Shown piece after piece: positions 13,993-47,618 of a stretch of 64,000 nt of DNA. The notes beneath the pieces were generated by a model. That model was not told the DNA's origin. It saw only the letters and a program-made list of their open reading frames with translations, and searched no databases. The DNA is from Arenibacter sp. 6A1. Its GTDB lineage: Bacteria; Bacteroidota; Bacteroidia; Flavobacteriales; Flavobacteriaceae. Positions within the stretch are counted from its first letter, which is position 1. Each line of letters opens with the position of its first letter. The translations under genes were made by a program, and so were the position numbers. The stretch is from NCBI RefSeq assembly GCF_012272855.1, contig NZ_JAAXCQ010000007.1, positions 124,001 through 188,000 of the forward strand. The letters run 5' to 3'.

Positions 13993-15891
13993 ATGAGCGA
14001 CGCCATTAAGCACGAATGTGGGATTTCTTTAATACGGTTATTAAAACCGTTGGAATATTATAAAGAAAAGTACGGTACAGCCTTTTACGGGGTAAATAAG
14101 ATGTACCTAATGATGGAAAAACAGCACAACCGTGGTCAGGATGGTGCTGGTTTTGCAAGTATTAAACTAGATATGGATCCTGGGGAACGCTATATGAGCC
14201 GGGTCCGATCTATAGATCAGCAACCGATACAGGACATTTTTGCCCAAATCAACGATCGGATCAATTCTTCCATGAAAGAGAATCCGGAATATGCCGATGA
14301 TGTTGCCAAACAGAAAAAGCACATTCCATACATTGGAGAAGTTCTTTTAGGACATGTTAGATACGGGACATTTGGAAAAAACAGCATCGAAAGCGTTCAC
14401 CCTTTCCTAAGACAGAACAACTGGATGCACAGAAACCTTATCGTTGCGGGTAACTTTAACATGACCAATGTTAACGAACTTTTTGACAACCTTATTCAAT
14501 TAGGACAACACCCCAAGGAAAAGGCAGATACGGTTACCGTAATGGAGAAAATAGGTCATTTTTTAGATGACGCCGTAGCCAAACTTTACAAAGACATTAA
14601 AAAGGAAGGATTTAACAAGAGAGAAGCCTCTCCGCTTATTGCCGACCGATTAAATGTGGGTAAAATTCTAAAAAGAGCAGGAAAGAACTTCGATGGTGGT
14701 TATGCCATGGCCGGACTTCTAGGACATGGAGATGCTTTTGTATTGAGAGATCCAGCCGGAATAAGACCTGCCTACTACTACCAAGATGATGAAATTGCAG
14801 TAGTAGCGTCTGAAAGACCTGCTATACAGACCGTATTTAACGTTCCCTTTGAAGAGGTGAAGGAATTAGATCCGGGACACGCCATTATCATTAAAAAGAA
14901 CGGTACCGTTAAGTTTAAGAAAATAATAGAGCCGACCGAAAGAAAGGCTTGTTCTTTTGAACGTATTTATTTTTCTAGAGGTAGTGACAAAGAAATATAC
15001 CAAGAGCGTAAGCAATTGGGGAAATTACTTTTTCCACAAATTCTAGACTCTATAGACGAGGATATTAAAAACACTGTTTTTTCTTATATCCCAAATACCG
15101 CGGAGACTTCCTTTTACGGGATGGTGATTGCTGCACAGAACTATATGAACAAAAAGAAAGAAGAACAAATTCTTTCTATTGGTCGCGAAATCACTGCAGC
15201 AGAACTACACGAAATACTAGAGGTACGCCCACGTATAGAAAAGGTAGCTATTAAGGATGCAAAGCTTAGAACCTTCATTACCCAAGATAGCAGCAGGGAC
15301 GATTTAGTGGCCCACGTATACGATGTTTCTTATGGTTCTGTAAAAAAGGACGATAATTTAGTTATCATAGATGACAGTATTGTGAGAGGTACCACTCTTA
15401 AAAAGAGTATCCTAAAAATATTAGATCGTTTATTACCTAAGAAAATTATCGTTGTTTCTTCGGCTCCACAAATACGCTATCCCGATTGTTACGGTATAGA
15501 TATGGCTAAATTGGAAGACTTTGTTGCCTTTAAGGCAGCATTGGCCTTACACCAAGATAAAAATACCATGCATCTTGTTGAGGAGATTTATCAGAAATGT
15601 TTAACTCAGGTGAACATGCCAGATTCAGAAATCGTAAACTATGTAAAAGAATTTTACGCGCCCTTTACCCCTGAAGAAGTTTCGGAAAAAATCGGTGAAT
15701 TGTTAAGTCCACCAGACCTTAAGGCCGAAGTTCAGATTATTTACCAAACGGTAGAGAATTTACATGAAGCCTGTCCTAAGAATTTAGGAGATTGGTATTT
15801 TACCGGAGATTACCCAACAGCAGGTGGTAACCGAGTGGTTAACAGAGCCTTTATCAATTTTTATGAAGGCAAAAACGAACGTGCTTACTAA
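13993..15891 (+). CDS. purF: Amidophosphoribosyltransferase (long Bacteroidota form)
   Basis: First committed step of purine synthesis: PRPP + glutamine to 5-phosphoribosylamine. The Ntn-hydrolase nucleophile is Cys9 after an eight-residue propeptide (MSDAIKHE then CGISLIR). The glutaminase domain runs to about residue 300 (HNRGQDGAG, GHVRYGTFG). The PRPP-binding loop is VIIDDSIVRGTT (about 456-467). At 632 aa it is over 100 residues longer than the E. coli enzyme; the extra length includes a linker and the C-terminal tail. It is the last gene before the 1.5-kb small-RNA region. Confidence 0.93.
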   Translation: MSDAIKHECGISLIRLLKPLEYYKEKYGTAFYGVNKMYLMMEKQHNRGQDGAGFASIKLDMDPGERYMSRVRSIDQQPIQDIFAQINDRINSSMKENPEYADDVAKQKKHIPYIGEVLLGHVRYGTFGKNSIESVHPFLRQNNWMHRNLIVAGNFNMTNVNELFDNLIQLGQHPKEKADTVTVMEKIGHFLDDAVAKLYKDIKKEGFNKREASPLIADRLNVGKILKRAGKNFDGGYAMAGLLGHGDAFVLRDPAGIRPAYYYQDDEIAVVASERPAIQTVFNVPFEEVKELDPGHAIIIKKNGTVKFKKIIEPTERKACSFERIYFSRGSDKEIYQERKQLGKLLFPQILDSIDEDIKNTVFSYIPNTAETSFYGMVIAAQNYMNKKKEEQILSIGREITAAELHEILEVRPRIEKVAIKDAKLRTFITQDSSRDDLVAHVYDVSYGSVKKDDNLVIIDDSIVRGTTLKKSILKILDRLLPKKIIVVSSAPQIRYPDCYGIDMAKLEDFVAFKAALALHQDKNTMHLVEEIYQKCLTQVNMPDSEIVNYVKEFYAPFTPEEVSEKIGELLSPPDLKAEVQIIYQTVENLHEACPKNLGDWYFTGDYPTAGGNRVVNRAFINFYEGKNERAY

Positions 15892-15998
15892 AATATTTTA
15901 TCGATGAACTACACAATTACGTGGCAATTTATCGTTGATATATACATATTATCGTCTTTATAAACATAAACTTATTCATTGCCACTACTTTAGTGTCA

Positions 15999-16071
15999 CC
16001 ATAGAATAAGTAGATTAAGTTTATGGTAAGATTTGGGGCAAAAAAGGCAGCGCACAGCGCTGCCTTTTTTA
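15999..16071 (+). ncRNA. Predicted small RNA, copy 1
   Basis: The conserved 5' block CCATAGAATAAGTAG continues to TATGGTAAGATTTGGGG, in which CCATA pairs with TATGG around an 18-nt conserved loop. It is followed by the terminator stem GGCAGCGC / GCGCTGCC (16046-16064) and a T run. A TACTTTAG -7-like box (15986-15993) ends five bases before the RNA start, exactly as in copies 2 and 3. The stem sequence differs from the other copies while pairing is kept. No matching -33 TTG was seen for this copy. Confidence 0.65.
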
Positions 16072-16113
16072 TTTTCCGATTATTATAATCGATCCTTAAA
16101 ACATTCATAGTAC

Positions 16114-16208
16114 CTGGGCGTTCCCCTATCGGGTCGCTCTTTTCGCTGTATCTTTTTTAAAGGCCCCATGGCCCTCTAAAAAAGGATGCCGCTGCACTAG
16201 CTAACGCG
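16114..16208 (+). repeat. REP-like element, copy 1 (diverged)
   Basis: An element beginning GGGCGTTCCC and ending GCTAACGCGG, with an internal segment that can fold on itself. It is the inverted partner of 16642-16734, and inward similarity continues for about 15 bp beyond the element (GGAATGCAGTGTACAATT). The interior is degenerate compared with the other copies. Confidence 0.6.
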
Positions 16209-16239
16209 GAATGCAGTGTACAATTTCAATTGGATAAAA

Positions 16240-16330
16240 GAAAAGAGAGGCCGAGATGGAAATGCAACGATTTACATTTATCTCGAGGAGCCAGCTGGTG
16301 TGTTGGCGTTGGTTGCAGTCATTTTCAATA
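16240..16330 (+). repeat. Internal direct repeat R1
   Basis: About 90 bp sharing the core AATGCAACGAT and GAGCCAGCTGGTG (containing the palindrome CCAGCTGG) with 16350-16444. No coding potential is evident. It lies between two inverted REP-like elements. Confidence 0.55.
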
Positions 16331-16349
16331 AGAAATAAGAAAATAGAGT

Positions 16350-16444
16350 AAAGAAAAAAGAGGAGCGCACTGCGAATGCAACGATCTGCAATTACAGGGA
16401 GGGGCCAGCTGGTGCATTGACCTTGGCTATAGCCGATTTACAAT
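16350..16444 (+). repeat. Internal direct repeat R2
   Basis: Second copy of the unit at 16240-16330. Common blocks are AATGCAACGAT, GGCCAGCTGGTG and the downstream TTGG; the flanking A/G-rich lead (AAGAAAAAAGAGGAG) is also shared. Confidence 0.55.
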
Positions 16445-16641
16445 GAATATTAAGTAGTTAGCAATAAACAATGAAAAAAAATTAGCAATAAAGGGTGAAG
16501 CGTACATAATAATCATCTCCTCAAAGTCTTCCAACTTCAAAAGTGTTTATACATATGTATAAAGGCATTGCCCATATTCATGGTTCTTATGCCTTTTCTC
16601 AAATAGGTACATTAAACACATTGCTAATTGTACATTGTATT

Positions 16642-16734
16642 CCGCGTTAGGGACCGCGGCGGCATCCCCGCAGCAACGCAAGGGATACAGCCAAGGGCCC
16701 GCCCGCCGTAGGAGGGAACGCCCAAATACCTTAA
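16642..16734 (-). repeat. REP-like element, copy 2 (inverted)
   Basis: Runs CCGCGTTAGGGACC to GGGAACGCCC on the plus strand, the inverse orientation of 16114-16208 and 27757-27840. The centre GGCATCCCCGCAGC... GGGAT has hairpin potential. The ends GCGTT/AACGC are mutually inverted. Confidence 0.7.
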
Positions 16735-16897
16735 AAGTGTATAGATCTGATTAATTTTAACCAAAAATACCTTCCAAATGCTATCCTAATCCTATAATGC
16801 CTTACATAATATTCCTAAAAAAGCATTTCAACCAATTATCAACGACGTTCAACTAAAAGTATTCCCCACCAAGACCCTTTGCGTTATTTTTGGAGGA

Positions 16898-16967
16898 CCA
16901 TAGCATAAGTAGGTTAAGTTAATGGTAAGATTTGGGGAAAAAGGCAGAGCACAGCTCTGCCTTTTTA
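16898..16967 (+). ncRNA. Predicted small RNA, copy 2
   Basis: Conserved block CCATAGCATAAGTAGG through AATGGTAAGATTTGGGG, then terminator stem GGCAGAGC / GCTCTGCC (16943-16961) and TTTTT. The fourth and fifth stem base pairs changed together with their partners relative to copy 1. A TATTTTTG box (16885-16892) ends five bases upstream. Confidence 0.68.
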
Positions 16968-17306
16968 ATTTTATCACCCCCTAGATTCCCCCTAAATAAG
17001 TAGTCTACCGCCCAATCTAAATCTTAGCAAACCAAGATATTTCACCTGCCAACACAATGGCCACCATCACCATTTTAGCGATGACGAAAGCCTAAACAGT
17101 CGGAATTTCGCTACAAAAAAGAACTATTTTTTATAATCACAAAAAACCTAAACCCCTTTAAAACAACATATAAGCACCTATATACCAGTAATTTATAATT
17201 ACTTTTTTTGCCCACCTTAAAATAATCTTCTCCTTAAATATTTATTTAAACATAATTTTCCTGATTTTCTTTTGATTATTCTCACATTCAAAGTATTTTA
17301 GTCATG

Positions 17307-17378
17307 CCATAGCATAAGTAGGTTAAGTTTATGGTAAGATTTGGGATGAAAAAGGTGGAGATTTCTCCACCTTTTTCT
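17307..17378 (+). ncRNA. Predicted small RNA, copy 3
   Basis: Conserved block CCATAGCATAAGTAGG through TATGGTAAGATTTGGG, then terminator stem GGTGGAGA / TCTCCACC (17354-17371) and TTTTT. This copy has the best promoter: TTG (17272-17274), 19 bp, TATTTTAG (17294-17301), again ending five bases before the CCATAG start. Confidence 0.72.
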
Positions 17379-17479: not shown

Positions 17480-18088
17480 TTATTTGTTTGCTTCGTACAA
17501 GGCCGAAACTTTTTCCCAGTTAACAACATTAAAAAATGCGTTGATATAATCTGGTCTTCTGTTTTGGTAATGCAAGTAGTAAGCGTGCTCCCAAACATCC
17601 AATCCTAAGATAGGGAATCCACCACAACCTATTTCTGGCATCAATGGGTTATCTTGGTTCGCCGTAGAACAAACTTCTACTTTCCCACCTTTTTGAACAC
17701 ACAACCAAGCCCAACCAGATCCAAATCTTGTTGCAGCAGCTTTAGAAAAGGCGTCTTTAAAAGCCTCAAAAGAACCAAAAGCGGCATCAATAGCCGTAGC
17801 CAAGGCTCCTGTTGGAGTTCCTCCTCCGTTTGGAGACATTACTTCCCAAAACAAGCAATGGTTGTAAAAACCACCACCATTGTTTCTTACAGCGGCATTA
17901 GACATGTCTAGGTTCGTTAAAATATCTTCAATAGACTTATTTGCCAAATCGCTACCTTGAATTGCGTTGTTTAAGTTGGTAGTATAGCCATTGTGATGTT
18001 TCGTATGGTGAATTTCCATAGTTCTAGCATCAACATGTGGTTCTAGCGCATCGTAAGCATATGGTAAATTAGGTAAATCAAAAGCCAT
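17480..18088 (-). CDS. Superoxide dismutase, Fe/Mn family
   Basis: Converts superoxide to oxygen and hydrogen peroxide in the cytoplasm. The 202-aa length fits the family. The four metal ligands are visible as H27 (EIHHTKHH), H77 (FYNHCLFW), D164 and H168 ([12 protein letters not shown]). Sequence alone does not settle iron versus manganese; [11 protein letters not shown] with LDVWEHAYY is common in Bacteroidota enzymes that use either. A TAGCTTTG box (plus-strand bases 18125-18132) lies about 37 bases upstream of the start as a candidate -7 element. Confidence 0.96.

Positions 18089-47541: not shown

Positions 47542-47618
<77 letters not shown>

Follow-up and report, generated by a model that had tools for sequence, protein, structure and literature searches.

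The window analyzed here, a 64,000-nucleotide stretch of Arenibacter DNA, carries between a purF-type gene and sodA three copies of a putative small-RNA gene. The available comparisons support the view that these belong to a multicopy small-RNA gene family that is under selection and has no Rfam match at gathering score. Taken as a whole, the observations are probably best explained by an array of trans-acting sRNAs that operates together with a sponge RNA and with mRNAs targeted at their start codons. The genes, their synteny, the complementarity between the RNAs and the shared promoter motifs are read directly from sequence, and the array with its complementary RNA resembles an RNA-based switch controlling surface proteins. 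The analysis is computational throughout. The features of the locus are as follows, where boxes and promoter motifs are assigned by sequence.

13993..15891, + strand: purF-type amidophosphoribosyltransferase, upstream syntenic marker (ORF with Pfam glutamine amidotransferase domains), which we take to be purF, as the initial annotation did
15929..15954, + strand: tandem TTATCG repeats, 20 bp apart, the class A promoter motif of copy 1
15986..15993, + strand: -7-like box of copy 1, TACTTTAG, conserved in the class profiles
15999..16070, + strand: sRNA copy 1, class A, with 5' stem-loop, linker TAAGATTTGGG and intrinsic terminator (16040-16070)
16827..16853, + strand: tandem TTCAAC repeats, 21 bp apart, the class B promoter motif of copy 2
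16885..16892, + strand: -7-like box of copy 2, TATTTTTG
16898..16966, + strand: sRNA copy 2, class B, with terminator (16938-16966)
17271..17274, + strand: TTTG, -33-like element in the housekeeping-like (class C) promoter of copy 3
17294..17301, + strand: -7-like box of copy 3, TATTTTAG
17307..17377, + strand: sRNA copy 3, class C, with terminator (17348-17377)
17480..18088, - strand: Fe/Mn superoxide dismutase (sodA), convergent downstream syntenic marker (ORF; Pfam Sod_Fe_N, Sod_Fe_C)

The three units form a 71-nt repeat family with spacings of 899 and 409, and each presents the same layout of a -7-like box, a 39-nt core starting with CCATAG five bases on, and an intrinsic terminator. At up to three mismatches, the core pattern matches only these three sites in the 4.67-Mb genome (reversed control 0). 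The whole-genome search and the sequence thus confirm the units that the initial annotation had placed at 15999, 16898 and 17307, and the five-base distance that it gave between box and CCATAG is true for all three boxes. Its reading of CCATA...TATGG in every unit holds for copies 1 and 3 but not for copy 2, which has CCATA...AATGG and therefore only the outer stem CCAT/ATGG; the linker TAAGATTTGGG is unchanged in all three. The terminator stems differ among the copies as had been described, and each is fully complementary. These compensatory changes had been offered as the pattern expected for selected RNA genes; they are present, although they are expected of any terminator and carry little weight alone. 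The proposal that the units are selected RNA genes and not decaying repeats is instead supported by invariance of the core across genera, by conserved synteny and by a complementary partner RNA. Rfam searches with the window and the units returned no named family at gathering score for the units, in agreement with the initial annotation, and the transposon context that it had named as a counter-indication was not seen around the units.

Inspection of the predicted fold reveals a 5' stem-loop (CCAU/AUGG, AGC/GUU, UAA/UUA, loop GUAGG), an 11-nt linker that is single-stranded (UAAGAUUUGGG), and the terminator. The parts available for pairing are the loop CAUAAGUAGGUUAAGUU and the linker UAAGAUUUGGGG, the latter also given as GAUUUGGGG or GAUUUGGG. 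Across Flavobacteriaceae outside one genus, g40, the 5' helix is 97% paired with no two-sided changes, so that covariation there neither supports nor refutes the helix. In a g40-rich set, two-sided changes occur in five of seven outer pairs, where the alignment was fitted to the model and includes chance rows. The units have the attributes of a trans-acting sRNA in that each possesses its own promoter-like box and intrinsic terminator, lacks a conserved coding frame, and has complementarity that is conserved with the sponge and with targets in relatives, though absent from the target orthologue of the window's own genome.

The family is widespread among relatives. The core pattern, at up to three mismatches, is found in 22 of 60 genomes including the window's own (G000), against none for the reversed control. 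A scan of named genomes for GTTNATGGTAAGATTTGGG returned at least 119 stretches, so the constancy of this part of the core follows from the search itself. The 5' part, which was free in the scan, is equally stable, where one 39-mer accounts for 218 of 356 unit records and a one-base variant for 90 of 356 (records from the listed loci, duplicates included). A covariance model built from the units (R1), as had been proposed initially, recovers the array family in most Flavobacteriaceae searched. Its matches fall in 63 of 296 genomes of the order, among them at least 61 of 73 genomes of the family; outside the family, among the matches listed, it finds 2 of 223 genomes, each weakly (32.5 and 34.8 bits) and without synteny. 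R1 matches away from the purF locus (L194, L195, L196 and L201; 20-35 bits) are likewise non-syntenic and look like chance.

An 8-mismatch scan locates units in 116 of the 119 listed stretches, with none in L041, L082 and L140. Among the matches listed, 43 stretches hold one copy, 17 two, 31 three, 18 four, 6 five and 1 six, and within each of the 116 stretches all copies share one strand. Either purF or sodA lies within 2.5 kb in 112 of the 116 and both do in 75, many stretches being cut by ends. Several genus-mates of the window's organism have the array split between two places, one adjoining purF and the other adjoining sodA. In g40 the core has diverged to CCATAACATTAGTAGGTTAAGTTTATGGTAGATTTGGGG, and the purF-sodA location is kept in most stretches read. 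Our guess is that g40 is Flavobacterium, and we infer that genomes G018, G014 and G028 are Zobellia uliginosa, Arenibacter palladensis and Pseudozobellia thermophila, respectively. Units distant from both purF and sodA were observed in L115, L116 and L120, where that of L115 is without a clear terminator.

Regions upstream of the units fall into three classes, A, B and C, represented in the window by copies 1, 2 and 3, respectively. Tandem TTNRWC repeats 19-22 bp apart characterize class A (119 of 181; shuffled mean 4.1) and class B (99 of 134; shuffled mean 3.9) and occur in 0 of 82 class C regions. TTTG near -33 is found in 48 of 83 class C regions, compared with 31 of 182 in class A and 13 of 135 in class B. 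LytTR binding was considered for the tandem repeats and dropped, since neither motif fits the LytTR consensus well. Since the copies differ in promoter, two being activator-like and one housekeeping-like, the output of the array would sum several inputs, with putative activators acting on two of the classes, and the differing promoters would thereby set how much sRNA is made. Near-identical multicopy sRNAs with different promoters, whose inputs add up, are familiar from Qrr, LhrC and the csRNAs; the organisms are unrelated to these, and the likeness is that the copies carry different promoters.

A search for the linker complement, CCCCAAATC, in three genomes, with the surroundings read, led to a second RNA. 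Most CCCCAAATC sites lie within genes, antisense. Locus L290 of genome G121 contains tandem units, each ending in a terminator of its own, in which two long matches reach E -39.9 and -37.8; beside the two full units stands a third, shortened sponge-like unit (L290 1900-1975) with a CCTACTTAAC site and a terminator. BLAST with one unit against 149 family genomes gave matches at E < 1e-7 in 10 and at E <= 0.001 in 38, many of the latter being only terminator-like, and gave no match in the window's own genome. The resulting putative ncRNA is about 190 nt long, ends in a terminator, often lies downstream of hflX and starts, in the aligned RNA, with TTTACATTGTAATTAAGTGATAGTGTTGACCCCAAATC. It carries three sites, composed of CCCCAAATC and GAACTTAA (site 1), CCCCAAATC and CACTTGACCTA (site 2), and CCAAATTTTAC and ACCTACTTAA (site 3). 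In each, the linker complement (CCCCAAAUC) precedes a complement to the loop region, for which the three sites use three overlapping stretches.

Relative to dinucleotide shuffles, pairing in relatives reaches z <= -2.3 at site 1 in 13 of 13 sponge units, z <= -2.0 at site 2 in 11 of 13 and z <= -2.0 at site 3 in 7 of 13; site 1 of L290 served as the search bait, and sites 2 and 3 did not. Built from sponges alone and restricted to their first 75 nt, a sequence-only model (R2) gave matches that include the full start, at E < 1e-5, in 12 of 17 genus-mates as well as in G018 (4), G028 (3) and G035 (2); those in G001, G008 and the window's own genome are weak. Positions 26-58 of R2 also match the sRNA array in antisense, both in the window's own genome and in each of the 17 genus-mates (E 3e-4 to 0.08), an unplanned sign of complementarity between sponge and sRNA. 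Five sponge loci compared with Rfam returned no family at gathering score. As in an sRNA sponge, a separate RNA carries several sites complementary to the sRNA seed, and we read the hflX-downstream RNA as a dedicated sponge for the array sRNAs, one that would lower the level or activity of the sRNA. RNAs that neutralize an sRNA by base-pairing are known from enterobacteria, where SroC and RbsZ are examples. Compared with these, the putative sponge of the array is encoded separately, by a gene that has a promoter and terminator of its own, offers three pairing registers, is tandem in some genomes, and has a promoter motif in common with targets.

The sponge of the window's own genome lies outside the window (G000:C59:139750), where it is a weak R2 match (E 0.039). 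Like other hflX-linked loci it sits directly 3' of hflX, identified by the Pfam domains GTP-bdg_N, GTP-bdg_M and MMR_HSR1, and it carries the -7-like box TATCTTTAC, an ACMACA pair and a terminator. Against the three window copies, its pairing gives z of -3.0 to -4.0 at site 1, -2.2 to -2.9 at site 2 and -4.8 to -5.4 at site 3, with energies down to -32.6 kcal/mol. This predicted pairing is the sole supported partner interaction in the window's own genome. Another terminator-ended RNA, with a 5' end of CCCAAATC...CCTACTTATG and a class-A-like promoter, was observed at L436 1501-1760 (G029) and is perhaps an independently evolved sponge.

Candidate mRNA targets were found in relatives. In the Zobellia genome G018, eight non-sRNA CCTACTTATG sites could be read, and four of them form the start codon of a long, signal-peptide-like ORF; in G121 none of four sites does so, nor does any of five non-sRNA sites in the window's own genome. 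L360, among the four in G018, encodes an Ig-like protein of the CHU_C type IX-sorted kind. A protein-similarity search for its orthologues matched 71 of 119 genomes, and 30 of the loci were read. The start codon carries TACTTATG in 14 of the 22 closest orthologues and in 0 of 8 more distant relatives. Leaders with TACTTATG mostly place it behind a GUAGU-nn-CCCAAAA-ACUAC hairpin, often with one more CCCAAATC, and the predicted pairing site for the sRNA linker on the target side is CCCAAAUC. Predicted leader folds put both CCCAAA stretches in or beside loops and leave CUACUUAUG unpaired in four of five drawn. Predicted sRNA pairing attains z <= -2.4 in 12 of the 22 orthologous start regions, or in 10 of 20 without L370 and L388, which were found by site, and z is negative in 21 of 22. 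The sole positive value (+1.2) belongs to L387, the orthologue in the window's own genome, which has no site.

Further candidates comprise L351/L444 (a lipoprotein with a pectate-lyase-like part), L345, L357, L330, L304 and, in g40, L224 with three complement blocks at its start. All of these were found by site, a selection that biases the list, so the weight rests on the 22 orthologues; the background of 225 start regions includes the candidates themselves. In pattern searches of 60 genomes, CCCAAAN{2,17}CTACTTATG has 23 non-sRNA matches against 7 in the control, with only 3 of 16 readable non-sRNA sites opening a secreted protein of at least 500 codons, and CCAAATN{2,9}CCTACTTA shows no enrichment (23 matches against 27 in the reversed control). 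Outside the arrays, AACTTAACCTACT is rarer than control. When co-change was sought in g40, where a search with CCTACTWATG led to no target, 1 of 17 CCTACTAATG sites and 0 of 7 CCTACTTATG sites fell at a start. Within the window's genus, a small, conserved, membrane-like ORF at L321 (G008) and L322 (G001) has CCCAAATTACTATTAACCTACTTA just ahead of its start, which makes it a possible target there.

Sponges and targets have a promoter motif in common. Of 22 target orthologues, 21 have tandem ACMACA repeats 20-23 bp apart in the upstream region (shuffled mean 0.0), as have 27 of 28 sponge units (shuffled mean 0.04); sequences within a clade are not independent for either set. The exceptions are L387, the target orthologue of the window's own genome, with a broken pair only, and L469. 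The same pair is found in 0 of 397 sRNA units; conversely, the sRNA promoter motif occurs at 1 of 22 targets and 1 of 28 sponges, as expected by chance. That otherwise unrelated sequences have ACMACA in common points to one activator for both targets and sponges.

On the proposed mechanism, each unit would be transcribed as a trans-acting sRNA of about 70-75 nt, whose 5' stem-loop would present loop and single-stranded linker for pairing with other RNAs. Such pairing would account for the roughly 30 nt that stay nearly invariant while the terminators drift. One partner would be the sponge, which may sequester the sRNA through up to three sites. The other, in relatives, would be mRNA that carries the linker complement in its 5' leader and CUACUUAUG at its start codon; binding at both places should block initiation of secreted and surface proteins, and would thereby repress them. 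Because sponge and targets have ACMACA in common, a signal that induces the targets would induce the sponge as well, freeing the targets from the sRNA. We put at about even the broader proposal that this two-RNA switch is ancestral to much of Flavobacteriaceae, with the purF-sodA array repressing type IX-sorted and other secreted surface proteins and a co-activated, three-register sponge at the hflX locus releasing them.

Two other readings concern what the RNAs do. The sRNAs might titrate or guide an RNA-binding protein, perhaps one of the RRM type akin to RbpB, such that core invariance reflects protein binding and mRNA pairing is minor. About 30 invariant nucleotides are long for a seed, and Bacteroides FopS sRNAs bind RbpB in the part of PMC11697453 consulted; even so, protein binding leaves unexplained why complements to three registers of this stretch persist in a second RNA family, and we regard this reading as decidedly unlikely, compatible as it is with pairing. 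Rather unlikely, in our estimate, is a primary role for the hflX-downstream RNA, as effector or as target, with the sRNAs serving chiefly to control it and the matches at mRNA starts secondary. No other partner is well supported in the window's own genome, where the complementarity of this RNA exceeds that of the target orthologue, but in other genera both complement blocks occur in target start regions, together with the sponge's own promoter motif.

Two readings without an sRNA were considered and rejected. That each unit encodes a mini-protein from the invariant ATG (ATGGTAAGATTTGGG) agrees with retention of this ATG in all core variants listed; yet the linker of g40 is one A shorter (TAGATTTGGGG), so that the frame shifts there, the reading frame continues into the terminator, and third codon positions vary no more than the others, making a peptide very improbable. 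A repeat or mobile-element family lacking RNA function, to which tandem copies and one recombination-like split of the array in genus-mates might point, is hardly credible given that the order of promoter, core and terminator is constant in every class, that synteny is conserved and that copies in the window's own genome are restricted to the purF-sodA locus. An array of trans-acting sRNAs with its sponge and start-codon targets is the reading that we prefer. Little is known of post-transcriptional control in Bacteroidota, and Flavobacteriaceae, which carry type IX-secreted proteins at their surface, play a major part in degrading marine polysaccharides. With a conserved sRNA, a conserved partner RNA and start-codon targets that are predicted, control of surface proteins after transcription becomes directly testable at named sites, and Rfam gains two candidate families.

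A literature search covering the main texts of openly accessible papers found none on the array RNA or its sponge. The closest comparison is FopS (RF04319), a group of paralogous, multicopy, terminator-ended Bacteroides sRNAs of about 65-70 nt that, in the part of PMC11697453 consulted, act at start regions of outer-membrane protein mRNAs. The array RNAs are also multicopy, terminator-ended Bacteroidota sRNAs of similar length. By the same partial account, FopS combines a single-stranded 5' stretch with a terminator in scattered copies, in contrast to the 5' stem-loop and tandem arrangement of the array, and is described there with no sponge RNA, whereas the array RNAs are matched by a putative one. 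Copy 1, the one copy compared, scores 20.3 bits against RF04319 (gathering 56, E 3.3) and so falls outside that family. Rfp18 of Flavobacterium psychrophilum comes from the same bacterial family and, in the portion of PMC9723704 consulted, has predicted pairing with secreted-protein mRNAs; it differs in having a third stem-loop there, where array units have two predicted, and was not assigned to the array family. This comparison covers Rfp18 by its description in that portion, and the 85 other new Rfp RNAs may include the array RNA; purF and sod are absent from the main text of PMC9723704.

Weak Rfam matches of the units to STnc40, Thr_leader and other families track the terminators and were discounted, and Flavo-1 (RF01705) has no match to the units. 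A 600-nt insert between copies 1 and 2 contains, on the opposite strand, a sub-gathering Flavo-1-like RNA at 16128-16206 (- strand; 37.5 bits, gathering 42, E 2e-6), together with a 42-nt inverted repeat of 83% (16184-16225 and 16626-16667). The sole Rfam match at gathering score within the window is a tRNA gene at 47545-47618 on the - strand.
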